From Carex sylvatica (lineage: Eukaryota > Streptophyta > Magnoliopsida > Poales > Cyperaceae): a DNA stretch of 64,000 nt. The DNA lies in NCBI GenBank assembly GCA_964058845.1, contig CAXKVR010000042.1, positions 1 to 64,000 of the forward strand. The letters are read 5' to 3'. How positions within the stretch are numbered: position 1 is the stretch's first letter; each line of letters starts with the position of its first letter. The notes below the pieces were generated by a model, which saw only the letters and a program-made list of their open reading frames with translations, was not told where the DNA came from and ran no database searches. Made by a program: the position numbers and the translations under genes. Below, piece after piece: positions 3,860 to 24,888 of this stretch.

Positions 3860-5888
3860 TGTCACACCCCGCGGCCCCACGAGGCGCGACAGGTGCCTCC
3901 TGCCGTAGACATACGGTTGCCCGTATGCCTACAAGGCAATTACGATATAATAGAAAGTAAAACACAACCAAACAAAACAAACAAATAACTAAGAAAAACA
4001 GTTCAAAAATCCCAACTGGTCAGGTAATATCATCCAAAACCCGTATCTCGATGGATACGCATCACAAAATGACATAGAGAATATATATATACAATCAAAA
4101 CATAAATATATACATGTCTCTAATGTCCAAAATACCAGACAACTAAGCAGCGGTGAAAACCAGGCCTACCGACCTCGTGTCTCTCTCGGATCCGCCGAAC
4201 CGGTACCTGAAAAATTAACCCAAAAGAGGGGGTGAGAATTGAATTCTCAGTGCGATAAATTGCCACAAATCGTTCCTGGACTTGCAATCACAGATTATAT
4301 TCAAAAAGTAAACACAAATAAAGCTCAAATCAGTTTATAATCATATATAAACATGAATGCACAAACCCGACAACATTTATCCAAATGAAATCACAATTCA
4401 GGAATTTCCAAGATGAAATTCAAGCACACAATATTTGGTTTAACTCGATTTCAGAATATCTGGTAGTAACTACAGATGTTTCACCAAACTGGACCCCAAT
4501 TCGTTCCCACTCATTTGTAGGGTTACACACACCTACAGACGGCTATGCCAGGTAAAACATTTTCTCATGACACTCATCTGTAGTTACAGGCTTAACTGTT
4601 TAATTAAAAGTCTGGTTCCAATTCATATCCGGAAAATCCATATAAATCCAATTGACCATCCAAACGCGTTACCCCCTGGGTAATGCCTCCGATACACAGT
4701 CACCCATAACCAAAATCATAATACAAAGTCACTTACCCCTCGTCCCAACCGGTACTGGGAACTGCCGAGGGCCAGACGATCTAAAGCTTTAGAATACTGG
4801 GCGTCAAAGTCCATGCATAGACTTTGACAAATCTGGATTCACCCCCTGGGTGACGTCATCACGGTGGATGACAATAATACCATATCCACCAACCGATAGT
4901 GATATAAAGCACGGTGACTTTAATTCCAAAATCAGATCATTCAGATCAACACAAATAATAACCATACCAGCATGCAAATCAATCAGATAAAACAAATCGA
5001 GTTTCACTTTATTTGGGCAATGCAATGCATATGAATCGAAACACAGTTTAATTTCTGAATATAAAATATCAGACAAGTCCAGAAACCCCGCACCTGAGTA
5101 ATAGCGCGCTCGACTAAGGCTCAGGCGTCTCGAACGACCCAAAAATCCTTTGCCTCGTATGATTATCACCTATTGCATACATTGATTCGATTAACGCGTT
5201 CGATTAATATCTGATAAGTTAACTCGATTAATTCCCGAATTTCACACACAAAATATCACAATTCATTTTCCTTACGACCCAACCCCAAAACCCTGGTTCA
5301 ATTCCAAATTCCACAAGCAAATCAATCCGATTATCGAGTTATAACATTTCAAATCAAATTCGAATTCGAATTTCACCAAAAATATAACAAATCAATTGAA
5401 TTAGGGTTTCCAAGAGAAAAGGAAGACAAATCATATCAACTATCACAAATTGACCACTAATCGAGCTAGAACTCGATTACGAAACCCTAATTACAAATTT
5501 CAACCGAAATCATGACAAATCGAATAAATCGAATAAATTAGGGTTTTCAAGAAATTACAAGGGAGGAAGATATACCAAATTGAAGCTTTATAATCGATCA
5601 AGGATCGTCAATTCAGCTCGAATCTCGATTTTCCGACAAGTTCGATCAGTTTCCGCGCTCGATTTCTCTCTCTCTCTCTCTTTCCCTTTTTAGTTCGGCC
5701 AACCCTAACCTCACGAATTCCTCTCAAATGTTTCGGTGAAATGAAAGAAGAAGAAGAAGGGAATTTAATTAATAATTGGAATTTTGCACATATACCCCTC
5801 CATTTTCTTAATATTACCAAACTTTGATAATTTCACAAATAAGCCCTTATGTAAATATTTTATTTATTATATTATTCATAATGTCACA
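3860..5888 (-). repeat. Tekay-like element 3' LTR
   Basis: 2029 bp, starting TGTCACACCCCGCGG and ending CATAATGTCACA on the plus strand. It holds a 29-bp segment around 3900-3930 absent from the other LTR; this segment contains a hairpin-capable dyad CATACGG-ttgc-CCGTATG. It ends against the polypurine tract, as expected for a 3' LTR of a minus-strand element. A CT microsatellite lies at 5666-5690. Confidence 0.96.
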
Positions 5889-5939: not shown

Positions 5940-7121
5940 TTAATTGTCGAATAACTCCGGATACTTTTCTCGGATGCTCTCTTCGAGCTCCCACGTCGCT
6001 TCCTTATCGGAATGGCGTCCCCATTTTACCAACACGAGCCGGATCACTTTGCTTCGTAGCCGTTGCTCTTTTCGGTCCAATATCTGTATTGGTTCTTCTT
6101 GATATGTCAGATCATCTTGTACGTGTAAACCCGAGTGATCAATACAATGCGACGGATCTCGCACATATCTGCGTAACTGTGATACATGGAATACCGGATG
6201 AACCCGGTCCAGCGCTGGTGGTAGCGCAAGCTCGTATGCAACCGGTCCAACTCGTCGCAAAATCTGGAACGGCCCAATATATCGGGGACTTAGCTTGCCC
6301 GAAACACCAAATCGATGCACGCCTCTGACAGGCGAAACTCGAAGCCATACGTGATCACTTTCTTGAAATTCCAACAGTTTTCGGTGAACATCCGCATATT
6401 TCTTTTGCCTTTCTTGAGCCGACTTGAGCCGACTCAGAACCATCTTCATTTTCTCAGCAATTTCTTCTAACATTTGCGGCCCTGTAGGTGGATATGTACC
6501 CGCTGGTCCCCACCACAGTGGAGTACGGCACTGCTGCCCTGTCAGCGCCTCTTGCGGTGACATACCAATACTTGAATGATAACTGTTGTTATACGCAAAC
6601 TCCACCAGATACAAATGATCAACCCACGAATCTTGTAAACTTAGCGCGCAGGAGCGCAACATGTCTTCCAGCGTCTGAATGGTGCGCTCAGACTGACCGT
6701 CAGTCTGCGGATGGTGCGCGGTGCTGAATCTCAACTTGGTACCCATTGTTTCTTGAAAACTCTCCCAGAAATGAGAAGTGAACCGTGGATCTCGGTCAGA
6801 AATAATATTGCGCGAGCAACCATGGTACTTAAACTGATATTTCAGGAACAATTCCGCCAATTCTTGCCCAGATGTCTCAATTCGAAGCGGAATGAAATGC
6901 GCTATCTTCGTTAATCGATCCACAATCACCCAAACTGCATTATACCTTCCGACAGTTCTCGGAAATCCACTTACGAAATCCATTGTGATTGATTCAAATT
7001 TCCTTGTAGGTATTTCCAGCGGTCTTAGCAATCCTGCTTTTCTCTGCCGATCCGCTTTAACTTGCTGACATATTTGACACTTTTCAACGTACCTTTGTAC
7101 TTCCTTTTTCATCTTTGGCAC
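5940..7121 (-). pseudogene. Tekay-like pol: integrase core and chromodomain
   Basis: Third surviving block of the chromovirus polyprotein. It begins within the integrase zinc-binding domain (CQICQQVK supplies the two Cys), continues with the DDE core (TMDFVSGFPRTVG for the first Asp, SDRDPRFTSHFW for the second, DGQSERTIQTLEDML for the Glu) and ends with a chromodomain (VLVKWGRHSDKEATWELEESIREKYPELF), whose role in the family is binding modified histones to steer integration. About 393 codons are open. It is out of frame with the block upstream because of the lesion near 7121. Confidence 0.92.
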
Positions 7122-9472: not shown

Positions 9473-9646
9473 CCTGCTGATATCTCCATATTATATCTGA
9501 ATTATGGCCCTAATTTACAATGAAACCTGTGCTTTAAAACCTATTAATGTGGACTTTTTACTTATATTTCGATGAAATGTGGTACTGCTATGTTTTGTTT
9601 GGTATTTTGCAGGAAAAAGGGCGAAAAACTGGTTCTGACAACTTTT

Positions 9647-9782
9647 CATACGGCCCGTATGATATTCTGTGCGGGCCGTACAAGAACTGCCCAACCACAC
9701 AGAAGGATCCACAACAGAGGCACAAAGTCTCCAAGTCAAAGCCCAGGCATACGGGCCGTACGGGATCCTGTACGGGCCGTAC
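9647..9782. repeat. Palindrome pairs 1 and 2 (5' LTR)
   Basis: Pair 1: CATACGGCCCGTATG at 9647-9661 and GTGCGGGCCGTAC at 9669-9681. Pair 2: CATACGGGCCGTACG at 9748-9762 and GTACGGGCCGTAC at 9770-9782. Starts within each pair are 21 bp apart when aligned. The 3' LTR carries the same copies. Confidence 0.9.
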
Positions 9783-10592
9783 AAAGCTGATTCGGAAAAT
9801 CCAGCTGGAATCTGAATTGAGCACAATTTGAGGAGCCGAAAAGGAAACCCCTGGAGGCGTGATCTGGGCATTAAAGGAGATATTCCACAGCAGGAAAGGG
9901 GATTAATAGCTAATCAATCAATAACTTTCCTATCATTCATTCTATCATTCGATTCTTTCTAGGTTTTCGGACAAGGGGAAAAGAGGAGGAGAAGGGGAGA
10001 ACGCGAGTTTTCCACGGATCTTCAGATTTTCCACTGTTTTATCATGAACTCTTTTATTTCTTGTTATTCGTGTTATCTCATGAACATGAGTAGCTAATTT
10101 TATTTGTTTCTAGGGGTAAGATGTAGTTTCTAGTTTAGTTTTGCTTGTATGCTACTATGATTTTGTGTTGAACGCTTGGTTTTTACTTTGTTATGTAGTA
10201 TTTTTATTGCTCTATTTGTGCTTGCTTGAATCTGATTAGTCATCCCGTTAGATGAATGCGCACATCTAAGTGTGGAGCCAAGTCTATGAAATTCATTCCA
10301 ACCGAATAAAGTATATGAAGTAGGGTGAAACCAAGGAGTACCCGAAAGGCGAAACTTTCCTTGAGGCGAAAGTCCTTGGATACTTTTAGCAAACTAACAA
10401 ATAACTTAGATAAATTAGGCCAAAATGCGAAAGTTGAGGTTTAACGCATCTAAGAGGGAAGTACTTGAGTCCGGTAATCGAGTATCAGGCCAAAATGCGA
10501 AAGTTGAGGTTAGGTATCTAGATCTGGTCAAAAGAAACCCTAAACACAGTATCAACACAGGAAACAGTAGCTGCAGCATTAACTTGAGGTGC

Positions 10593-10627
10593 CATACGGA
10601 CCGTACGGGAACCTGTACGGGCCGTAC
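10593..10627. repeat. Palindrome pair 3 (5' LTR)
   Basis: CATACGGACCGTAC at 10593-10606 and GTACGGGCCGTAC at 10615-10627; aligned spacing 21 bp. Confidence 0.9.
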
Positions 10628-10950
10628 GCCTTGAGACTGAACAGAAATGAAATCTGAACCCTGGAAACGCCCTTTTATCAATTGAAAACAACTTTAATTA
10701 TCTCTTATTGTCTTTTAATCAGTAGAATTGTTAGAACTAAAACCAAACCAAATTCTTCTCACTTCTAGAATCTTAAGTGATTTTAGGATAAGTCTAGTGT
10801 TTTTATTCCGTCCCTGTGGATCGATACCTGAGCATACTCAACGACAGGATAGTGCACTTGCTATCTGAATTGACAGAGTATAACAAAGGTTTAAAAAGTA
10901 TAGCTTGCTATACTGAGACTTTTTGGCATATTCTCGTGCGATCAAGTTTT

Positions 10951-10968
10951 TGGCGCCGTTGCCGGGGA
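10951..10968 (+). other. Primer binding site, tRNA-Asp type
   Basis: TGGCGCCGTTGCCGGGGA starts six bases after the LTR end. It is the complement of the tRNA-Asp 3' end used by plant Athila-group elements. Confidence 0.92.
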
Positions 10969-11155
10969 ACTGGCAACTAAAATACTGTACTTTTTCTTAT
11001 TTTTGCTTGATTCTAGATTTTAATTTTAATTTTTCGTATTTCATCTTTGCAGGAACATACTGGAAGAGTCACTGCCCAAAAACCACTACCATCTCAGAAG
11101 CAAAGGGCAAACCTCCAACACATTTGTTCCAGCGCCACCACATCTGTCACCTCTC

Positions 11156-11189
11156 CGTACGGCCCGTACAAAATTCATACAGGTCGTAC
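11156..11189. repeat. Palindrome pair 4 (gag leader)
   Basis: CGTACGGCCCGTAC at 11156-11169 and the diverged CATACAGGTCGTAC at 11176-11189; spacing 20 bp. It lies in the untranslated leader 42 bp before the gag-pol ATG. Confidence 0.85.
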
Positions 11190-11230
11190 AAACCGACAAC
11201 AGAGGCCAGACAGATCCAGAACAAAGCGAA

Positions 11231-14200
11231 ATGAACAACCACGGTGCTGAACAAGATCCACTCAACGAGGGTACTGGACAAGGTCAACCCAACGAGGATC
11301 AATACTCTGATGACGAAGGAGCAAACTATGCGCCAAGGACGTTGCGAGAGTTCAATGTCCCGCGAGCTGGAGATGTTAGAGGAGCAATCCGATTGCCAAG
11401 GATTGTAGGCAACCAACCCAACTTCAATCCGGGCGTTGTCAACATCGTGCAGCAAAACACATTCCATGGCATGGATCATGAGGATCCGCATGCCCATGTT
11501 CAAACTTTCCTTGAATGCTGTGCCACCATTAAAATTAATGGCGCAACAGCTGATTATATTAGACTTGCTTTATTTCCTTTTACTCTTAGGGATAAAGCCA
11601 AGAAATGGTTAGGGTCATTACCAAGGGATTCAATCACCACTTGGAGGGAATTGTCCAAACTGTTTTTGACCAGATTTTTCCCCCATAAAAGAACTGCCAA
11701 GGTTAGGACCCAACTGACCAGTTTCAAACAAAGGTCTGATGAACCACTGAATGAGGCCTGGGAAAGGTTTAGGGAATTGCAATACTCTTGCCCACATCAT
11801 GGTATTCCCGAATGGTTACTTATTCAATCCTTTTATGCTGGTTTAACTGATACCACTCGTACTTCTGTAGATGCAGTTGCAGGTGGAGCTCTCATGGATC
11901 GAGACGCTACTGAAGCAATGAACTTAATCGACAATATGGCGACTAACCAACAGTGGTCCGGCCGAGAGGGCAATCGAGCTACTGGAGGAGGCCGACTTGA
12001 GCTCGATCAGATCACAGCTCTCACCGCCAAGTTTGACGCCATGCAGAAGGCTTTTGACAAGATGAGTGTCAAAGCACTCGGTAATCAGCAACCACAACCT
12101 TGTGTTATGTGTGGAGACGAGGGGCACGAGTATGAGAATTGCCCGCTTGCGCAAAGGGATGAAGGGCCCGAGCAAGTTAACTCTCTCAACAGTGAACCAT
12201 CCTACTTCCCAAAACCTCCTTTCAGCCGAACCTATTCCAAGGATCCGATTGAACAACAGAATTGGAGGTGGAAGCAAAACAATCCCACACAATTCAACAA
12301 CAACCCTTCTGGCAGCAACAACAACAACAACCGCAACTTCTACAACAATGCTGCATTCAATAACTCAAACAACCGACCACCATATTCTGGACCATCTAAG
12401 CCCTATGTTGCCCCTGCAGTAGAAAACTTCATGCATGAACAAGGGAAGATGAATCAAATGCTTTTCGAACAGATGCAAACGATCAGTGCTCAATTGGCAA
12501 GTTTGGCCCAAAACAAACCTCAAAGTGGGAGCCAAACTGCACCACCACAACCTGGGATGCTACCAAGCCAACCAGAGATTAACCCTAGGGGAGAGGCCAA
12601 AGCGGTAACATTGCGAAGTGGGACACAGTACCAAGGACCAGCCATACCTGTCGAGCCAGAAGCCGACCATACGGTCCGTACAAATCCCATACGGCCCGTA
12701 CCAACACTCCCTGCGATTTCTGAACAGTCAAAGCCTGATCCGATTGAGGTTGTGACTGAGACAACAGACCATACGGTCCGTACAAATCCCGTACGGCCCG
12801 TACCGAATGAAACTGATAAACAGAAAAAGAAGGTGACCGAGAAACCACCGCCCTACCGGCCACCAGTACCATTTCCACAGAGACTAGTCGAAACCCGACT
12901 CAATGAACAGTTCTCAAACTTTCTTGAAGTTCTCAAGCAATTGCACATTACCATCCCATTCACCGAGGCTTTGACCCAAATGCCAACCTATGCTAAGTTT
13001 CTCAAAGATATCCTATCCAATAAACGAAGCTTGGGGGGGCATGAGACGGTGAAATTGACTGAACAGTGCAGTGCTATCCTGAGAAATGAACTTCCACCGA
13101 AATTAGGAGATCCGGGTAAATTTTCCATTCCATGCACAATTGGCAAAGCAACCATCCGACAAGCTTTATGTGATTTGGGGGCTAGTGTGAGTCTCATGCC
13201 GCGAACTATCTTCGAACGAATGGGTGTAGGCGAGCTTAGACCTACACGGATGACTTTACAACTTGCGGATTCTTCGGTGAGACTACCACTTGGCATAGTG
13301 GAGGATGTACCGGTTCGAGTCGGTAAGTTCTATGTGCCCGGTGATTTTGTTGTGATGGAAATGGAGGAAGACAAGGAGGTCCCTATTATTCTAGGACGGC
13401 CGTTTTTGAGAACCGCCGGGGCGCTAATCGATGTGAAAAATGGGACTTTAACCTTGAACATTGGAGATGAGAAAGTTCACTTTCAAATCGACCGAGCAAT
13501 GAAGTATCCCGCTCAACCCGAATCGTGTTATATGGTCGATGTGATTGATGAATTAGTTGAAGAGAAGTTAATGGAGCAAATCAACAACTCTCTAAGGTAT
13601 CATTCTGATTTTTTATCTGATTTGCAGGCTGAAACAGGCGATCTTGAGAGAATTTGCGCAGCAGACATGACACCTGTCTGTCTGGAAGATTTTCCGTACG
13701 GGCCGTACACAGATCATACGGACCGTACAACAGACGAATTTAAAACAGAGAAGCTGGAGATTGAGAAGGAACCAAAAGGCCAGTCTGAAGCTGAGGCATA
13801 CGGTCCGCACGAAATCCATACGGCCCGTACAACAAGCCAGACAGCACAGACCACTCCCGAATTAAAACCTCTCCCAGCCACTCTCAGGTACGAATTCCTT
13901 GACTCAGAAAAGACATGTCCTGTCATTGTGAATGCAGGGTTGACCCCTGACCAGACCGCCAAGCTCATGGAGAAGTTGAGAACCCACAAAAGCGCGATTG
14001 GGTATTCTATCAATGACTTGAAGGGGATCGATCCAACCACTTGCACACACAGGATCTTGCTAGAAGACGACCACAAGCCTTCAGTTGAACACCAAAGACG
14101 GCTCAACCCGAATCTAAAAGAGGTAGTAAAGAAAGAAATTTTAAAACTTTATGAAGCAGGTATCATCTACCCGATTTCTGACAGCAAATGGGTGAGTCCC

Positions 14201-16879
14201 GTCCATGTGGTTCCCAAGAAAGGAGGAGCAACAGTGGTGAAAAATGAGAAAGAAGAGATGATTCAAACGCGCGTTGCAACCGGTTGGAGGATGTGCATAG
14301 ATTATCGGAAGCTCAACGCGGCTACACGCAAGGATCACTTTCCCTTGCCATTTGTTGATCAACTCCTTGAAAGGCTTGCTAACCACTCATATTTTTGTTA
14401 TCTTGATGGTTATTCAGGTTTCTTTCAGATTCCCATTCACCCGCAGGATCAAGAGAAGACCACATTCACATGTCCATACGGTACCTACGCATACCGTAGG
14501 ATGCCTTTCGGTCTTTGCAATGCACCTGCGACTTTTCAGAGAACCATGATGGCTATTTTTTCTGACTTTATTGAAAAAGAAGTTGAAATTTTTATGGATG
14601 ATTTTTCTGTATACGGTACTTCTTTCGATTCTTGTTTGGCTAATTTGTGTAAAATTTTGCAGAGATGTGAAGAAGTTAATTTAGTCCTCAATTGGGAAAA
14701 ATGTCATTTCATGGTCCAAGAAGGAATTGTCTTGGGACATGTTATCACCTCTAGAGGTATAGAGGTTGATAAAGCAAAAATTGAGGTGATCGAGAAACTC
14801 AAAATCCCAACAAATGTCAAGGGGGTTCGAAGTTTTCTTGGACATGCCGGCTTTTATCGCCGTTTCATAAAAGACTTCTCAAAAATTGCCAAACCTTTGA
14901 CCAATTTACTTATTAAAGATTCTGATTTTATTTTCACTGATGATTGTGTCAAGTCTTTTTGCAGTTTAAAGGAAGCTCTTATCTCTGCACCTATCTTACA
15001 ACCGCCAGATTGGTCACTACCGTTTGAGTTGATGTGCGATGCAAGCGACTATGCAGTCGGAGCAGTTCTGGGACAACGGAAAGACAAGAAGCCGTGCGTT
15101 ATTTACTATGCTAGCAAGGTGCTAGATCCGGCCCAAATGAACTACACCACAACCGAAAAGGAGCTCCTCGCCATCGTATTTGCTCTCGATAAATTCAGAT
15201 CATATTTGGTGGGCTCGAAGATAGTGGTCTACACAGATCATGCCGCACTAAGGTACCTTTTAAGTAAAAAAGATGCAAAACCAAGACTGATTAGATGGAT
15301 TCTTCTTTTGCAGGAGTTCGATCTTGAGATAAGAGATACGAAAGGAGTCGAAAATTCTGTAGCAGACCATCTGTCACGTCTTCATTGGGAAGAAGATACC
15401 ACAACTAAGCTCCCAATCAATGACTCATTCCCCGATGAACAACTCCTTGCAATCAGTTCTGATCTGGACGACAACCATACGGGCCGTACAGAAGTTCATA
15501 CGGCCTGCACAATCCACCATACGGACCGTACACAAACTCATACGGACCGTATAAGTACCAACCAGTCCAAACAGCAGACTCCCTGGTATGCCGACATTGC
15601 GAATTACCTGGTCTCTGGAGTTTTGCCCGCCACAATGTCCCAACAACAGAAGAAGAAACTAAGGTCAGATTCCAAGTACTACTTTTGGGACGAGCCCTAT
15701 CTCTTCAAGGTTGGAGTTGATGGCGTATTCCGACGCTGTGTTCCATTCGAGGAAACAGATTCTATTCTTGCACATTGCCACTCGTCCGCTTATGGAGGAC
15801 ACTCTTCATTCTCTAAGACCACTGCCAAGGTATTACAATCTGGTTTCTTTTGGCCTTCTCTTTTTAAAGATGCAAGATCTTTTGTTATAGCTTGTGACAG
15901 GTGCCAAAGAACCGGAAACATGACAAGACGAAGTGAGATGCCTCTCAATTTTATCCTTGAGGTTGAGATTTTTGATGTTTGGGGCATCGATTTCATGGGT
16001 CCATTCCCCTCTTCTCAAGGGAATGAGTATATTTTGGTGGCAGTCGACTATGTATCAAAGTGGGTTGAGGCCATGGCGTGCCGCAAGGCTGACTCGAATT
16101 CGGTAAGAAAGTTTTTCAATGAGATCATTTTCCCTCGTTTTGGTGTGCCTCGAGCTGTCATCAGTGACGGAGGCAAGCACTTCATCAATCGACAATTCGC
16201 GAAACTCTTGAGTCGACATGGGGTGACTCACAAGGTATCCACTTCTTATCACCCTCAAACTAATGGCCAAGCTGAGATTTCTAACAGGGAAATCAAGTCG
16301 ATTTTAGAGAAAACAGTCGCAAGGACGAGGAAGGATTGGGCTTTCAAGCTGCATGATGCACTCTGGGCCTACCGCACCGCCTTCAAGACACCGATTGGCA
16401 TGAGCCCTTACAAGCTGGTGTATGGGAAGTCGTGCCACCTTCCCGTTGAAATTGAGCACAAGGCATTCTGGGCCACAAGAGCGATCAACATGGACCTGCT
16501 TGCAGCTGGAGAAAAGCGTGTCCTCGACTTGCATGAGCTAGAGGAAATGAGGTTGCATGCGTATGAGAATGCGAAGTTTTACAAGGAAAAGACGAAGCGC
16601 TTGCACGACCAACGCATCTCACCTCGCCAGTTCAAAGAGGGAGATCTTGTACTTTTATTTAATGCTAGATTGAGAATTTTTCCAGGTAAACTCAAATCAA
16701 GATGGTCAGGCCCATTTCAGGTAGAGAAAGTGTACCCTTTTGGAGCAGTTGATATCTGGAGCAAAGAAAGTGGTACCTTCAAGGTAAATGGTCAGCGTCT
16801 CAAGCACTACGTTGCTGACCACTTGATGGATGAGCGGAATGTTCAGTTTCTTTCTGACCCCGCTCAGATAGCAGTTTAA
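11231..16879 (+). CDS. Athila-like gag-pol polyprotein, intact
   Basis: A single 1882-residue frame. Approximate residues: capsid-type gag 60-240 ([27 protein letters not shown]); CCHC zinc knuckle near 291-304 ([14 protein letters not shown]); aspartic protease near 645 with DLGAS, an Asp-Leu-Gly in place of the usual Asp-Thr-Gly, a form I recall as common in this lineage; reverse transcriptase 940-1200 with [19 protein letters not shown] and catalytic FMDDFSVYG near 1122; RNase H 1260-1380 ([37 protein letters not shown]); integrase zinc finger 1515-1560 ([15 protein letters not shown]) and DDE core ([24 protein letters not shown]). There is no chromodomain. Linkers between domains are rich in HTVRT, IRPVP and YGPY strings encoded by the palindrome pairs. 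The first ATG after the leader is taken as the start. No frameshift or stop was seen. Confidence 0.96.
12668..12803. repeat. Palindrome pairs 5 and 6 (gag-protease linker)
   Basis: CATACGGTCCGTAC at 12668 and CATACGGCCCGTAC at 12688; CATACGGTCCGTAC at 12770 and GTACGGCCCGTAC at 12791 (aligned start 12790). Spacing is 20 bp in both, so the first copy is read as HTVRT and the second, shifted by two, as IRPVP or VRPVP. The pairs are 102 bp apart and share the spacer AAATCC, so they look like duplicates. Confidence 0.92.
13695..13830. repeat. Palindrome pairs 7 and 8 (protease-RT linker)
   Basis: CGTACGGGCCGTAC at 13695 and CATACGGACCGTAC at 13715; CATACGGTCCGCAC at 13797 and CATACGGCCCGTAC at 13817. 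Spacing 20 bp; pairs are again 102 bp apart. First copies read YGPY or YGPH, second copies HTDRT and HTART. Confidence 0.92.
15476..15552. repeat. Four-copy palindrome array (RNase H-integrase linker)
   Basis: CATACGGGCCGTAC 15476, CATACGGCCTGCAC 15497, CATACGGACCGTAC 15518 and CATACGGACCGTAT 15539. Spacing is exactly 21 bp throughout, so all four are read in one codon phase as HTGRT, HTACT, HTDRT and HTDRI. Confidence 0.93.
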
Positions 16880-17095
16880 GTTGAAAGGTGGTCTAGCTAA
16901 AGACCTTAAATGAGCGCTTCTTGGGAGGCAACCCAAGCATTTTTAAAAAAAATTATTTTGTTTAGTCATTTCTCTTATTGTTATTACTTTAGTTTCTGAA
17001 TATTTAATTTACTATTAGTTTTAATTTGGATTTTTCATTTTTGTAGTTGTCTTTCAATTCTGATCAGATAGGAGAAGAAATCATTTCTGGGAGTT

Positions 17096-17130
17096 GGTAC
17101 GGTCCGTACTATATTTCATACGGGCCGTAT
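17096..17130. repeat. Palindrome pair 9 (after pol)
   Basis: GGTACGGTCCGTAC at 17096 and CATACGGGCCGTAT at 17117; spacing 21 bp, untranslated. Confidence 0.88.
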
Positions 17131-17670
17131 GGGAACCATTCGGCGCAGAGCCTCAAGGGGCGCGGCAGAACCTCAAAGGGCACGACCTTTTCTCTTCACA
17201 TCCCTTCGACTTAACTCCCGTCCTTTCGGTTAGACCCTCTTCCCTTTTAAACCCGACCCCCCCCGACAGACTCTACCCCACACCACCTCCTTTTTGTCGT
17301 TTTCTTCCTACGGACCGAACACCACCCCGTATAACCAAAACCCTAGCCGCCGCAACTTCTCCTCCGCCGCTCTCCACCTCTAGCTACCCACCGGCCGCCC
17401 ACTCTCCGCCACCTTTCTATCCGCCTCTAGCGGATCGCTGCCACCTCACCTCCGCACCAACCTTCTCTTTTCCACTGGTCACCGATCTTCTCTAGCACCT
17501 CACCACCACCGGTCACCATCTCTAGCAGCGCACCACCGCCCTCGTTCGCTGCTACACCCTCGTGATTCCTTCCAAGCCGCACTACAAATTCCTCGCCGCC
17601 GACAACTTTTCTACCAAGACACCGACCAAACCCTACCAGCCGCCTCCTTCCCCTCTGAGCACACACCAGC

Positions 17671-17748
17671 CCTACGGCCCGCACAGACTCCCCATCCAGG
17701 CCGTACCAACCACCGTCCGACCCGTACAAATCCCTCTCCGGGCCGTAC
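17671..17748. repeat. Degenerate four-copy palindrome array before second ORF
   Basis: CCTACGGCCCGCAC 17671, CATCCAGGCCGTAC 17693, CGTCCGACCCGTAC 17714 and TCTCCGGGCCGTAC 17735. Spacings are 22, 21 and 21 bp. The left half-sites have decayed while the CCGTAC right halves are mostly kept. It ends 19 bp before the second ORF. Confidence 0.75.
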
Positions 17749-17766
17749 CACTTCCTACTGACAGCT

Positions 17767-19074
17767 ATGTCTGGTGAGCGCCGTCAAAAGCGGCGCCAAG
17801 ACCGCTCCCCCACACCACCCCGTCATCCCTCACCAGAGCCCTATGACTCCGGCTCTAACCGCACTTCCTCTGGTGAATACACCGACCGCGCCGACCGCTT
17901 CGCGGCACGGTACTTTGAAATGCCCACTCGTCGGATGTACGAGAACTTCATCTCTTTACAACGGCGAGTATTCGAGAACACCGCCATGGTTCACTTCGAC
18001 ACACTCCACGCTCTTGGAGTCGAGGATGATTTCAGCCCAGATTTCTGGAACATTCGCAACCCCGCCTACGAGATGGACACCAAGGAATTCCTCTCCTCTC
18101 TCGAGCTGAAGTTGGACAACCACGATGTCCTCTTCATCAAATTCCGGCTCTGTAATCAAACCCATCGCGTCTATCTCTCCTCTCTACGCGAGTGGTTCGG
18201 TTTCCATCGCGAGCCCACTACTGACACTCTCAGTTTCCGACCTGGGTGGGATCGAGATACCTTCTGGGCCATGATCACCGGCTGCCCTCGCTCCGCCAAT
18301 GCATCATACCGAGCACGCTACATCCCTCACCCGGTTCTTCGTATCATCCAGCGCGCCCTTGCTTCTACCATCTTTGCGCGCGGTGAGACTCAGAACCGCG
18401 CCAACACCGTCGACCTCATGCTCATGGATACCATGCTCCGTGCCGACTCCGAGTATCCAGACTTGGCCCTTCTCATGGTCCAGCACTGGATTGGGCAGCA
18501 GTCCAAAACCAGGCACGGTGGCAAGATCAAAATTGGGGCTTATGTCGAGGTCATTAAGCAACGCCTTGGCTTGGGTGAGTATCCAGGTCGAGACCCCTGT
18601 CCGGGCCCCACTCTGATGGACCTTGAGAGCTACCGCCAGGCTCTTTTCCTCACTATCTCCCGTGGCCCGGCCGGTCACTCTGACTACTATGAGTGGCGCT
18701 TTGCCGATGGCTCTTCCCGCCGCCTACCATTTGGACCATCCATCACCATGGACGACCCCTCCACCTGGTTGGTCTCCGCTACTCCACCTCCTGCCTCTGA
18801 CATCCCCAGTACCTCCTTCCAGCCCCCCACATCTGCGTATGCCCGCCCTTGCCCAGCTAACCCCTCTCTTAGGGATCTCTACTCCCTCATGACTGATATC
18901 CGGGCCACTCAGCTGCAGCAGGACCGTGACATCACCGCCATCCAGCAGCAGACGGCCATTCACACCACTCGACTGGATGAGATTAGTGGCTGCATGTTTG
19001 ACTATGCCGAGCGTCTTGGTGACATCGAGGACCAGTTTCGCGACTGGCGCTTCGACCCCTCTTCTGACTACTGA
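17767..19074 (+). CDS. ATHILA ORF-1-type protein (second ORF)
   Basis: 435 residues. The stretch MVHFDTLHALGVEDD followed by EMDTKEFLSSLEL, IKFRLCNQTHRVYLSSL and REWFGFHREP matches the plant ATHILA ORF-1 family, which sits 3' of pol in Athila-group elements, the position of env in retroviruses. I see no signal peptide, hydrophobic segment or furin-like site, so calling it an envelope protein is not supported by this copy. An Arg/Ser/Pro-rich N terminus (1-40) could bind nucleic acid (inference), and residues 375-425 (LQQDRDITAIQQQTAIHTT) may form a coiled coil. The frame is intact. None of the palindromes fall inside it. The molecular role is unknown. Confidence 0.85.
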   Translation: MSGERRQKRRQDRSPTPPRHPSPEPYDSGSNRTSSGEYTDRADRFAARYFEMPTRRMYENFISLQRRVFENTAMVHFDTLHALGVEDDFSPDFWNIRNPAYEMDTKEFLSSLELKLDNHDVLFIKFRLCNQTHRVYLSSLREWFGFHREPTTDTLSFRPGWDRDTFWAMITGCPRSANASYRARYIPHPVLRIIQRALASTIFARGETQNRANTVDLMLMDTMLRADSEYPDLALLMVQHWIGQQSKTRHGGKIKIGAYVEVIKQRLGLGEYPGRDPCPGPTLMDLESYRQALFLTISRGPAGHSDYYEWRFADGSSRRLPFGPSITMDDPSTWLVSATPPPASDIPSTSFQPPTSAYARPCPANPSLRDLYSLMTDIRATQLQQDRDITAIQQQTAIHTTRLDEISGCMFDYAERLGDIEDQFRDWRFDPSSDY

Positions 19075-19590
19075 TCAGGTTTCTTTGTCCCTACCCTAGC
19101 TTATTTATTTTTCCCATTACATATCCTGAAGCATTGAGGACAATGCTCGGACTAAGCTTGGGGGGTGATTAGTTATTTTCTTTATTTTGCATTTAGTTTG
19201 TCTTAGTTTGTTTCTGTGTTTGCATGTTTTGAGGATTAAATCTGTGTGAATTGCGTGAATTAGGGTTCAATTTGAAAAATTTTGGTTGTGAAATTGGTTG
19301 AATTAGGGAAATTGGAAATAACCACACGTTTGGTTGAAAGAACTGTATACGATAGTCTGTTTTGGGACTTTGTGGGATTGAATTGAATTGTGTCAAGAAA
19401 GCATTTGAAACCGGAATATGCCTTGTAAAAATAGAAAAATGGGATTTCAAAGTAATAGAAAGATTAGGACATCCATTGGTATGAATGAATATCATTGGAT
19501 GTGTGTATTCATGATGCATATGAAGGGAAAAGATGGAGAATATAAGAGTACTGGCAATAAGCCGTGTTAGGCGCCTTTGAGCTCGTCTCC

Positions 19591-19624
19591 CATACGGACC
19601 GTACCCAGATCATACGGACCGTAC
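19591..19624. repeat. Palindrome pair 12 (3' noncoding)
   Basis: Two identical copies of CATACGGACCGTAC at 19591-19604 and 19611-19624; spacing 20 bp. Confidence 0.92.
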
Positions 19625-19639
19625 ACCTATAAAAAAAAA

Positions 19640-19652
19640 TGGTATCAGAGCC
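19640..19652 (+). other. Internal tRNA-iMet primer-site-like motif
   Basis: TGGTATCAGAGCC follows an A tract. It is the exact motif used as primer site by many plant elements including the surrounding chromovirus, but this element primes with the tRNA-Asp-type site at 10951. It may be a relic of recombination or chance. Confidence 0.5.
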
Positions 19653-20015
19653 TTTACAAACATCAACACACGAAGTCCGTGACTTTCTGACCTAAGCTTG
19701 TTCCAAGCTTGGGGGAATTTCCAACCACAAATGAGGGCATAAATTTGGTAAAGAATGAACTATTGATACGTTTGATTGCTTAATTCTTACAAATAGCATT
19801 ACATTCTTGAAGTTAGGGTTTGATCAATTGAGTTGTGGGGTGAATTAAATTGACCAAAGGAAACCAAGTTACTATCCAAAATGACTCTAATGGATTTCTA
19901 ACGAACGCAAGATCATGCACATTTTTCCTCTTAGTAGATTAAGTTGCATTTAGGTAAGTCCAACAACCCGAACCACACCTAAGTTAGAATTTTTGCTTGA
20001 GGACAAGCAAAGTTC

Positions 20016-20030
20016 AAGCTTGGGGGAATT
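20016..20030 (+). other. Polypurine tract of the Athila-like element
   Basis: CAAGCTTGGGGGAATT directly abuts the 3' LTR; the AGCTTGGGGGAATT form is typical of the Athila/Tat branch. Confidence 0.88.
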
Positions 20031-21498
20031 TGATATCTCCATATTATATCTGAATTATGGCCCTAATTTACAATGAAACCTGTGCTTTAAAGCCTATTAA
20101 TGTGGACTTTTTACTTATATTTCGATGAAATGTGGTACTGCTATGTTTTGTTTGGTATTTTGCAGGAAAAAGGGCGAAAAACTGGTTCTGACAACTTTTC
20201 ATACGGCCCGTATGATATTCTGTGCGGGCCGTACAAGAACTGCCCAACCACACAGAAGGATCCACAACAGAGGCACAAAGTCTCCAAGTCAAAGCCCAGG
20301 CATACGGGCCGTACGGGATCCTGTACGGGCCGTACAAAGCTGATTCGGAAAATCCAGCTGGAATCTGAATTGAGCACAATTTGAGGAGCCGAAAAGGAAA
20401 CCCCTGGAGGCGTGATCTGGGGCATTAAAGGAGATATTCCACAGCAGGAAAGGGGATTAATAGCTAATCAATCAATAACTTTCCTATCATTCATTCTATC
20501 ATTCGATTCTTTCTAGGTTTTCGGACAAGGGGAAAAGAGGAGGAGAAGGGGAGAACGCGAGTTTTCCACGGATCTTCAGATTTTCCACTGTTTTATCATG
20601 AACTCTTTTATTTCTTGTTATTCGTGTTATCTCATGAACATGAGTAGCTAATTTTATTTGTTTCTAGGGGTAAGATGTAGTTTCTAGTTTAGTTTTGCTT
20701 GTATGCTACTATGATTTTGTGTTGAACGCTTGGTTTTTACTTTGTTATGTAGTATTTTTATTGCTCTATTTGTGCTTGCTTGAATCTGATTAGTCATCCC
20801 GTTAGATGAATGCGCACATCTAAGTGTGGAGCCAAGTCTATGAAATTCATTCCAACCGAATAAAGTATATGAAGTAGGGTGAAACCAAGGAGTACCCGAA
20901 AGGCAAAACTTTCCTTGAGGCGAAAGTCCTTGGATACTTTTAGTAAACTAACAAATAACTTAGATAAATTAGGCCAAAATGCGAAAGTTGAGGTTTAACG
21001 CATCTAAGAGGGAAGTACTTGAGTCCGGTAATCGGGTATCAGGCCAAAATGCGAAAGTTGAGGTTAGGTATCTAGATCTGGTCAAAATAAACCCTAAACA
21101 CAGTATCAACACAGGAAACAGTAGCTGCAGCATTAACTTGAGGTGCCATACGGACCGTACGGGAACTTGTACGGGCCGTACGCCTTGAGACTGAACAGAA
21201 ATGAAATCTGAACCCTGGAAACGCCCTTTTATCAATTGAAAACAACTTTAATTATCTCTTATTGTCTTTTAATCAGTAGAATTGTTAGAACTAAAACCAA
21301 ACCAAATTCTTCTCACTTCTAGAATCTTAAGTGATTTTAGGATAAGTCTAGTGTTTTTATTCCGTCCCTGTGGATCGATACCTGAGCATACTCAACGACA
21401 GGATAGTGCACTTGCTATCTGAATTGACAGAGTATAACAAAGGTTTAAAAAGTATAGCTTGCTATACTGAGACTTTTTGGCATATTCTCGTGCGATCA
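20031..21498 (+). repeat. Athila-like 3' LTR
   Basis: 1468 bp, about seven differences from the 5' copy by eye (six substitutions and one 1-bp indel). It repeats palindrome pairs 1-3 at about 20200-20335 and 21147-21181. Confidence 0.96.
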
Positions 21499-22888: not shown

Positions 22889-24888
22889 TGTCACACCCCA
22901 CGGCCCCACGAGGCGCGACAGGTGCCCCCTACAAGGCAATTACGATATAATAGAAAGTAAAACACAACCAAACAAAACAAACAAATAACTAAGAAAAACA
23001 GTTCAAAAATCCCAACTGGTCAGGTAATATCATCCAAAACCCGTATCTCGATGGATACGCATCACAAAATGACATAGAGAATATATATATACAATCAAAA
23101 CATAAATATATACATGTCTCTAATGTCCAAAATACCAGACAACTAAGCAGCGGTGAAAACCAGGCCTACCGACCTCGTGTCTCTCTCGGATCCGCCGAAC
23201 CGGTACCTGAAAAATTAACCCAAAAGAGGGGGTGAGAATTGAATTCTCAATGCGATAAATTGCCACAAATCGTTCCTGGACTTGCAATCACAGATTATAT
23301 TCAAAAAGTAAACACAAATAAAGCTCAAATCAGTTTATAATCATATATAAACATGAATGCACAAACCCGACAATATTTATCCAAATGAAATCACAATTCA
23401 GGAATTTCTAAGATGAAATTCAAGCACACAATATTTGGTTTAACTCGATTTCAGAATATCTGGTAGTAACTACAGATGTTTCACCAAACTGGACCCCAAT
23501 TCGTTCCCACTCATTTGTAGGGTTACAGACACCTACAGACGGCTATGCCAGGTAAAACATTTTCTCATGACACTCATCTGTAGTTACAGGCTTAACTGTT
23601 TAATTAAAAGTCTGGTTCCAATTCATATCCGGAAAATCCATATAAATCCAATTGACCATCCAAACGCGTTACCCCCTGGGTAATGCCTCCGATACACAGT
23701 CACCCATAACCAAAATCATAATACAAAGTCACTTACCCCTCGTCCCAACCGGTACTGGGAACTGCCGAGGGCCAGACGATCTAAAGCTTTAGAATACTGG
23801 GCGTCAAAGTCCATGCATAGACTTTGACAAATCTGGATTCACCTCCTGGGTGACGTCATCACGGTGGATGACAATAATACCATATCCACCAACCGATAGT
23901 GATATAAAGCACGGTGACTTTAATTCCAAAATCAGATCATTCAGATCAACACAAATAATAACCATACCAGCATGCAAATCAATCAGATAAAACAAATCGA
24001 GTTTCACTTTATTTGGGCAATGCAATGCATATGAATCGAAACACAGTTTAATTTCTGAATATAAAATATCAGACAAGTCCAGAAACCCCGCACCTGAGTA
24101 ATAGCGCGCTCGACTAAGGCTCAGGCGTCTCGAACGACCCAAAAATCCTTTGCCTTGTATGATTATCACCTATTGCATACATTGATTCGATTAACGCGTT
24201 CGATTAATATCTGATAAGTTAACTCGATTAATTCCCGAATTTCACACACAAAATATCACAATTCATTTTCCTTACGACCCAACCCCAAAACCCTGGTTCA
24301 ATTCCAAATTCGACAAGCAAATCAATCCGATTATCGAGTTATAACGTTTCAAATCAAATTCGAATTCGAATTTCACCAAAAATATAACAAATCAATTGAA
24401 TTAGGGTTTCCAAGAGAAAAGGAAGACAAATCATATCAACTATCACAAATTGACCACTAATCGAGCTAGAACTCGATTACGAAACCCTAATTACAAATTT
24501 CAACCGAAATCATGACAAATCGAATAAATCGAATAAATTAGGGTTTTCAAGAAATTACAAGGGAGGAAGATATACCAAATTGAAGCTTTATAATCGATCA
24601 AGGATCGTCAATTCAGCTCGAATCTCGATTTTCCGACAAGTTCAATCAGTTTCCGCGCTCGATTTCTCTCTCTCTCTCTCTTTCCCTTTTTGGTTCGGCC
24701 AACCCTAACCTCACGAATTCCTCTCAAATGTTTCGGTGAAATGAAAGAAGAAGAAGAAGGGAATTTAATTAATAATTGAAATTTTGCACATATATCCCTC
24801 CATTTTCTTAATATTACCAAACTTTGATAATTTCACAAATAAGCCCTTATGTAAATGTTTTATTTATTATATTATTCATAATGTCACA
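22889..24888 (-). repeat. Tekay-like element 5' LTR
   Basis: 2000 bp. Nearly identical to the 3' LTR, but lacks the 29-bp dyad-containing segment. Confidence 0.96.

Follow-up and report, generated by a model that had tools for sequence, protein, structure and literature searches.

An Athila-type long terminal repeat (LTR) retrotransposon of Carex sylvatica carries 34 copies of an odd palindrome, arranged in pairs or short arrays along the whole element. The element occupies 9478-21498 on the + strand of the stretch analyzed here (positions 1 to 64,000 of contig CAXKVR010000042.1, referred to as the window). The motif, CATACGGNCCGTAC (referred to as type A), has a free center base. Its sites are regularly spaced and constrained, and related Athila families carry palindromes of their own at shared places. 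We conclude that the palindromes are probably sequence-specific sites on double-stranded DNA, each family having its own protein reader.

Allowing up to three mismatches on both strands, we found 73 matches in the window, compared with a mean of 4.76 (maximum 10) in 100 dinucleotide shuffles, which did not reproduce the motif. Thirteen matches are exact, and all 13 lie on the + strand of the element, which is its coding strand. The 34 sites comprise six in each LTR and 22 internal ones: two in the leader, four each in the gag-protease (PR), PR-reverse transcriptase (RT), and RNase H-integrase (IN) linkers, two after pol, four in a decayed array before the second open reading frame (ORF2), and two in the 3' noncoding region. 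Start-to-start spacings of up to 60 bp, with both LTRs included, are 21 bp (12 times), 20 bp (six times), and 22 bp (once). This recount agrees with the original prediction, made from the letters of the window, of about 34 copies at these same places with starts 20, 21, or once 22 bp apart. Two additional weak single matches, at 14477 (in RT) and 17309, look like chance.

All pairs and arrays lie on the + strand. The 5' LTR (9478-10944) contains three pairs with 21-bp spacing (9647-9681, 9748-9782, and 10593-10627), matched in the 3' LTR (20031-21498) by three pairs at 20200-20234, 20301-20335, and 21147-21181. The leader pair (11156-11189) has 20-bp spacing and a decayed second copy. Two pairs of 20-bp spacing, 102 bp apart, are found in the gag-PR linker (12668-12803) and again in the PR-RT linker (13695-13830), and the RNase H-IN linker has four copies at 21 bp (15476-15552). 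Downstream of pol are a noncoding pair of 21-bp spacing (17096-17130), the decayed four-copy array directly before ORF2 (17671-17748; spacings of 22, 21, and 21 bp), and a 3' noncoding pair of 20-bp spacing (19591-19624). The span first given for the element, 9647-21181, therefore marks the outermost sites and falls short of the element itself.

We also searched, with no sequence specified, for odd palindromes with 5-base arms recurring 12-60 bp apart, dropping arms of one or two letters. Inside the element, this search returned 11 pairs, every one TACGG at 20, 21, or 42 bp; the remaining 52 kb of the window gave two pairs of different sequence. A general palindrome count is weak evidence alone, because outside the element, too, the window has more palindromes than its shuffles (73 versus 40.9). 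In the whole host assembly, the exact 14-mer occurs 363 times forward and 279 times in reverse, compared with 0 and 0 in a reversed-sequence control. The helical repeat of DNA is 10.5 bp, and distances between pairs have a weak periodicity of 10.25-10.5 bp (17 distances, Rayleigh p 0.025). This periodicity is no more than suggestive because the distances had been chosen by hand from existing lists and inspected before testing.

To compare genomic copies, we aligned 57 of 68 loci piecewise to the window, leaving out three loci of a second group (type B, below), two of the window itself, and six overlapping windows of one copy. Close copies of the element are mostly 94-100% identical to it in RT; they share ancestry, and the substitution cells are not independent. 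The ten symmetric positions of the palindrome were substituted in 142 of 5974 cells (2.4%), compared with 91 of 596 (15.3%) for the center base and 1088 of 14424 (7.5%) for flanks of ~30 bp. In the coding linkers together, the core was substituted in 41 of 2645 cells (1.6%) and the flank in 377 of 6445 (5.8%). Gag-pol codon positions 1, 2, and 3 were substituted at 1.8%, 1.6%, and 7.2%, rates taken from a locus set in which one copy is counted twice (two overlapping loci). The linker core thus evolves like codon positions 1 and 2, and linker flanks approach position 3.

The contrast between core and flank was seen in the gag-PR linker (8/580 versus 109/1667), the PR-RT linker (11/1056 versus 150/3072), the RNase H-IN linker (22/1009 versus 118/1706), the post-pol pair (7/505 versus 238/1417), and the 3' noncoding pair (15/666 versus 151/1551). 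It is weaker in the LTR (22/1110 versus 112/3215), and the decayed array before ORF2 is less constrained (55/1024 versus 208/1712). The leader sites, covered by two loci, are uninformative (2/24 versus 2/84). Collectively, these counts indicate that the site set is real and is conserved in copies of the element. A separate observation concerns C43:221055-227610, apparently an internally deleted copy retaining its sites. Its motif pairs, within 6.6 kb, are ordered by their spacers as LTR, leader, gag-PR linker, 3' region, and LTR.

Constraint in coding sequence could reflect a peptide that recurs within the polyprotein, for example as a linker or as a target of protease cleavage. ORF1 (11231-16879, + strand) is open for 1882 amino acids and encodes gag, PR, RT, RNase H, and IN, with Pfam domains in gypsy order; for the protease domain, two of three Pfam models fall below the cutoff and one is just over it. 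The coding copies do occupy the linkers between gag, PR, RT-RNase H, and IN, as a repeated peptide would. However, the 12 ORF1 sites use all three reading frames (8, 2, and 2), and 22 of the 34 sites lie outside ORF1. The three frames and the noncoding copies rule out peptide-level selection as a general cause, and we give this explanation practically no credence. None of the 12 ORF1 sites falls inside the six Pfam domain stretches checked, as originally noted for the conserved domains. The use of three frames together with this avoidance of domains indicates selection on the nucleic acid, not on a peptide.

Relatives of the element were found throughout a range of divergence. Type B copies are 84-89% identical to the window in RT and 37-50% in ORF2, and more distant Athila relatives 65-80% and 27-36%, respectively. 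Whether relatives carry the motif at the same linker positions had been proposed as a check. Close copies retain it, but distant families lack it and have another palindrome at some or most of these places. Three further Athila families carry CACGGNCCGTG, CCGCANTGCGG, or TGCGGNCCGCA there, mostly 20-22 bp apart. Three of the four families have the form (T/C)(A/G)CGG-N-CCG; in the fourth, the palindrome is everted (CCGCA-N-TGCGG). The type B palindrome is CACGGNCCGTG-like, with C at position -5 in 19 of 25 sites and G at +5 in 16 of 25 (sites from C157 plus the gag-PR pair of C298), compared with T at -5 and A at +5 in 28 of 28 window sites.

The positions of type B sites follow those of the window element, which lie, relative to RT, at -1468/-1448, -543/-523, -441/-421, and +1238/+1259/+1280/+1301. 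In the gag-PR linker, C298 has sites at RT-1468/-1448 and C878 only at -1471. In the PR-RT linker, sites occur at -534/-514 in C157, C298, and C878, and at -421 in C157 and C298. RNase H-IN sites lie at +1229/+1250/+1292 in C157 and C298 and at +1235/+1256/+1298 in C878. C157 has 17 more type B sites downstream of pol, in stretches partly matching the window LTR and 3' part. A six-copy type B array with spacings of 21/19/21/19/21 is found in this copy. Elsewhere in the assembly, arrays of ACACGGNCCGTGT every 40 bp (C3:485783-485875, C7:80298-80390, C38:273185, and C40:67286) resemble this six-copy array. RT synonymous divergence (dS) between the window and the type B copies is 2.7 and 1.8, with the third value undefined. 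Because synonymous sites are saturated, the shared site positions in type B do not reflect recent descent.

The same data bear on neutral tandem duplication, in which a functionless unit of 20-21 bp would have been copied and scattered by recombination. Tandem arrays are known, among them the four copies in the RNase H-IN linker and the six in C157. Yet the palindrome recurs while spacers and flanks differ at most places, substitution in its core is about a third of that in the flanks despite two CpGs, and positions are retained across saturated synonymous divergence. We therefore consider neutral duplication very unlikely.

In the remaining two families, CCGCANTGCGG and TGCGGNCCGCA sites lie in the PR-RT linker and again 2.7-2.8 kb past the start of RT. 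C723 (RT 78% identical) has no type A site at zero to one mismatch in the 5.8 kb examined; its PR-RT linker has CCGCANTGCGG at RT-564 (two mismatches), -544, and -467; a further copy, degenerate, lies at -1462. CCGCACTGCGGATG has 71 matches across the assembly (control, 0) and occurs at RT-544, -467, +2719, and +2801 in both C140 and C281, at three of these positions in C283, and at the last two in C412. C1 (RT 80%) and C31 (RT 79%) have PR-RT linkers with TGCGGNCCGCA copies 21 bp apart, and that of C1 has an additional TGCGGNCCGCA pair at 22 bp, its second copy degenerate. CGGNCCG pairs in C1 are found at RT-4575 to -4421, -671 to -527, +2661 to +3265, and +6497 to +6580, apparently in the LTRs, the PR-RT linker, and the post-pol region; the pairs listed include none in the gag-PR or RNase H-IN linker.

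We then scanned the assembly for pairs with starts 14-44 bp apart, using reversed sequence as the control. The places listed for each scan, the first 50 by contig order, include copies of one element and are not independent. The scan gave 541 places for ACGGNCCGT (control, 0) and 71 for CCGCANTGCGG (control, 0); the 50 listed for CCGCANTGCGG are spaced 20-22 bp (36 places), 42 bp (12), 24 bp (one), and 36 bp (one). For TGCGGNCCGCA, there are 82 places (control, 0), with 22 bp in 45 and 21 bp in 5 of the 50 listed. Any CGGNCCG pair was found at 1619 places (control, 76), and spacing was 20-22 bp in 40 of the 50 listed. An unrelated dispersed repeat has the same core: ACGGTCCGTCCGGTCT and its complement lie ~40 bp apart around a poly-A/T core (C6:18243, C6:19249, C10:57328, C15:491300, and C1:628404), possibly as a small inverted-repeat element.

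Because a tandem palindrome is an inverted repeat too, the natural alternative to a DNA site is a hairpin in the genomic RNA, for packaging or small-RNA production. The hairpin potential of each pair was absent from the original prediction. All seven stretches that we folded form a hairpin, with stems of 9-13 bp, loops of 4-10 nt, and z scores of -1.9 to -5.4. Bousios et al. reportedly described palindromes in maize Sirevirus LTRs in 2016. Palindromes of Sirevirus LTRs are small-RNA hotspots (PMC5311732). However, a hairpin needs no arm that is palindromic in itself, and here each arm is. The center bases of type A form Watson-Crick combinations in 18 of 99 distinct pairs (26.9 expected) and G-U in 21 (15.5 expected); those of type B are Watson-Crick in 1 of 14 pairs (4.0 expected). 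In 156 type A pairs, 214 letters deviate, and the partner motif restores none of them. None of these letters is restored by the motif's own other half either, so the test supports reading of the sequence in general, not of DNA as such. Complementarity of type B letters, 15 versus 13 and 15 versus 15 of 28 for the partner and the own half, does not discriminate. Moreover, a single type B site (RT-421) and three-copy CCGCANTGCGG arrays in chromoviruses exist. Taken together, these results make RNA hairpins an improbable explanation.

Two of the four palindromes are found beyond Athila. CCGCANTGCGG arrays 7.05-7.10 kb apart flank RTs of 42% identity in C1, C40, C87, C99, C104, C140, C148, and C188, with a chromodomain between the arrays in all eight places. 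TGCGGNCCGCA pairs ~8 kb apart flank chromovirus RTs at C99:22359 and C167:72177. Judging from the distances between arrays, these chromovirus sites would lie in LTRs.

Such sharing between Athila families and chromoviruses only 42% identical in RT is the main evidence for host transcription or chromatin factors as readers. Here, families would have adapted to members of one protein family reading CGG-N-CCG, and the sites would form an enhancer array with no reader encoded by the element. Sirevirus palindromes with a CGG-CCG core in several plants (PMC2829016) are also consistent with this explanation. Nevertheless, an enhancer needs the LTR alone, yet the coding linkers and the 3' part carry sites, and the palindrome varies among families at shared linker positions. 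To our knowledge, there is no plant factor with a CGG-N-CCG palindrome as its consensus. A text search of the literature with four exact site strings returned, at the level of titles, only work on fungi or fungal regulators. We regard host factors as a serious possibility, if somewhat short of a probable one. Two classes of host factor were considered and set aside: SPL-type sites have a CCGTAC/GTAC core and TCP-type sites GGNCC, a resemblance only, and the other families lack a GTAC core.

If the reader is instead encoded by the element and specific to its family, ORF2 is the candidate. This 435-amino-acid ORF (17767-19074, + strand) matches PF03078, the ATHILA ORF-1 family (E 3.4e-15; 56.3 bits against a cutoff of 20.2), in agreement with the initial description of the element as Athila-like. 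Among 22 copies compared, the ratio of nonsynonymous to synonymous divergence (dN/dS) is 0.15-0.26 for the 11 most diverged and 0.21-0.97, on few changes, for the 11 closest. ORF2 is therefore under purifying selection. The protein has a basic N-terminus and a long predicted C-terminal helix (368-428) that could dimerize. Matches to ORF2 are listed for C157 and C298 (46-47% identical to the window), C1 and C31 (30-33%), and C281 and C412 (27-28%). No known DNA-binding family was matched in Pfam, profile, and fold searches. A match of the ORF2 profile to papillomavirus E2 (E 0.55 to 0.56) was not significant and was discarded. The families listed for 15 ORF2 homologs do not include DUF1985, a domain of VANC. 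ORF2 may be the reader of the palindromes, an assignment that we make tentatively; an anti-silencing role for it is conceivable and the more doubtful of the two proposals.

Several observations weigh against a family-specific reader encoded by the element, in addition to the hairpins formed by folded stretches. The sharing of CCGCANTGCGG and TGCGGNCCGCA with chromoviruses favors a host factor or use in trans. The type B switch is incomplete, with T on the left in 6 of 25 sites and A on the right in 9 of 25. In C157, the 4.5 kb upstream of gag-PR lacks type B sites and is not similar to the window element, and C723 has no CCGCANTGCGG at up to two mismatches in the RNase H-IN, post-pol, or 3' pieces examined. 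The 231 bases of C703 (RT 78%) that were examined contain none of the three palindromes scanned, at up to two mismatches. For ORF2, the structure model is poor (mean predicted local distance difference test score, pLDDT, 50.4), a Foldseek search with it gave no match at E 0.001, 15 homologs share no Pfam family except PF03078, and neither C723 nor C140 is among the copies with a listed ORF2 match. Lastly, 252 of 254 homologous proteins have no motif-encoded pair at 12-60 bp; 240 of the 254 were chosen by RT or RNase H-IN similarity, and not all span a linker.

In the two remaining proteins, peptides of the kind that the motif would encode are paired. In the PR-RT linker of P0019, the spacing is 20 bp and the pair resembles type B (HGPHNSHTGRV). 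P0003 has pairs at 21 bp, IRPVHQPIRTV and YGPHKLSYGPY, immediately ahead of ORF2, plus a single cross pair at 50 bp. For shuffled sequences, the count was 0.00-0.06 per spacing. At the sensitivity of this peptide scan, the paired motif does not appear to be general in Athila. A scan of IMG/VR with the Athila RT found no relative. Two plant-type Athila polyprotein fragments, P0100 and P0107, are labeled Candidatus Nitrosocosmicus and Snodgrassella and are probably plant DNA within archaeal or bacterial assemblies. In the PR-RT linker of L077 (C703:16310-16540), a repeat of the form ACACGGCC...GGCCGTGT...GGCCGTGT takes the place of an N-centered palindrome, perhaps a fifth code with another geometry.

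The limits of the element were set by LTR comparison and the target duplication. Its LTRs begin TGATATC and end GATCA (TG...CA), and CCTGC is duplicated on both flanks (5 bp). The LTR ends, the 5-bp duplication, the domain order without a chromodomain, and the PF03078 ORF2 identify it as Athila (Ty3/gypsy), a lineage that it also resembles in LTR layout. Among 120 chromodomain matches across the assembly, a single one is in the window (5946-6086), and it lies outside the element. The two LTRs are identical in 1461 of 1467 aligned columns, with six substitutions and one indel. At 1.3e-8 substitutions per site and year, so few differences point to a young insertion, roughly 0.16 million years old. 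The insertion site is a minus-strand gypsy element of chromovirus type, whose ORFs are split as a result. Exact LTR parts of this outer element lie at 4845-5155 and 23845-24155, identical across 311 bp, and no palindrome pair was found in it.

The original prediction knew of no described system with such a layout; two systems proved comparable. Sireviruses (Ty1/copia) have repeated motif (RM) palindromes in 8-32 copies per element, often differing between elements, located in the LTRs and clustered just upstream of an env-like ORF, with a CGG-CCG core in 12 of 13 listed; RM is reported there as Sirevirus-specific (PMC2829016). Similarly, the window element has a palindrome with a CGG-CCG core in at least eight copies, placed in the LTR (three pairs) and before ORF2 (17671-17748 versus 17767), which is only putatively env-like. 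Unlike the Sireviruses, it is Ty3/gypsy by domain order, and its sites also lie in gag-pol linkers, the leader, and the 3' region, in pairs 20-22 bp apart. The section of PMC2829016 compared makes no mention of pair spacing.

VANDAL transposons carry family-specific arrays of short motifs, to which the VANC anti-silencing proteins that they encode bind (PMC5735166). These motifs have one orientation and differ between related families with different proteins (PMC5735166, PMC10398659), and a VANC6 motif is also present in the unrelated repeat AT9TSD1 (PMC5735166). The window motif likewise has one orientation, and related Athila families have different motifs and diverged candidate cognate proteins. 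As for restriction of a motif to its cognate family, CCGCANTGCGG and TGCGGNCCGCA are also found in chromoviruses, and AT9TSD1 likewise has a VANC6 motif. In contrast, VANDAL is a MULE-type DNA transposon with non-palindromic motifs of 8-9 bases, mainly noncoding, and binding has been demonstrated, whereas the system described here belongs to an LTR retrotransposon, has an odd palindrome in fixed pairs that extend into coding linkers, and has ORF2 as a candidate reader.

Titles and abstract openings in the literature searched, with most subscription papers outside the search, yielded no paired palindrome in Athila and no VANC-like system in LTR retrotransposons. PMC11963269 describes repeats that are specific to a family and adjoin an extra ORF whose product may bind DNA, a parallel to the window element; those repeats are 8-100 bp, mostly in the 3' region, and are not described there as phased palindromes across the element. 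VANC is discussed beside sunflower LTR retrotransposons in PMC12844716, along with Athila clades of distinct methylation. PMC11728184 and PMC12859917 were also drawn on. The phenomenon is known in kind, from Sirevirus-type palindromes and VANC-type family-specific motifs; its lineage and geometry are new.

Half-site constraint, a free center, arms that differ between families, and pairing at two helical turns point to a cooperative, dimeric protein binding double-stranded DNA. Such a reader would recognize the CGG half-site plus two flanking bases. Two dimers would be neighbors on the same helical face at a distance of two turns, with the pair as the putative cooperative unit. These units would occupy places where the element tolerates them, namely, the LTR, leader, polyprotein linkers, and noncoding 3' part. 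Each Athila family would have its own version of the palindrome, changed at many sites, as the site set and the reader evolve together. If the reader is the element's own ORF2, it may act on element chromatin along its length, with anti-silencing or self-activation as the outcome, much as VANC works on VANDAL transposons. In the fullest form of this proposal, which is speculative and rather unlikely as a whole, LTR retrotransposons would have a counterpart of VANC: an ORF2 dimer of each family would read its own CGG palindrome at paired, helically phased sites along the element, coding linkers among them, and open or protect its own chromatin, sites would change in concert, and chromoviruses would free-ride through palindromes in their LTRs. 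A free ride of chromoviruses on an Athila protein would fit the occurrence of a VANC6 motif in an unrelated repeat.

These findings show that arrayed palindromes like those of Sireviruses are also present in the other LTR-retrotransposon superfamily. They also supply a rule for such palindromes (pairs 20-22 bp apart, a free center base, and conserved CGG half-sites), with related families having different palindromes at shared places. With a candidate reader and a candidate code for each family, the role of the extra ORF in Athila becomes directly testable.

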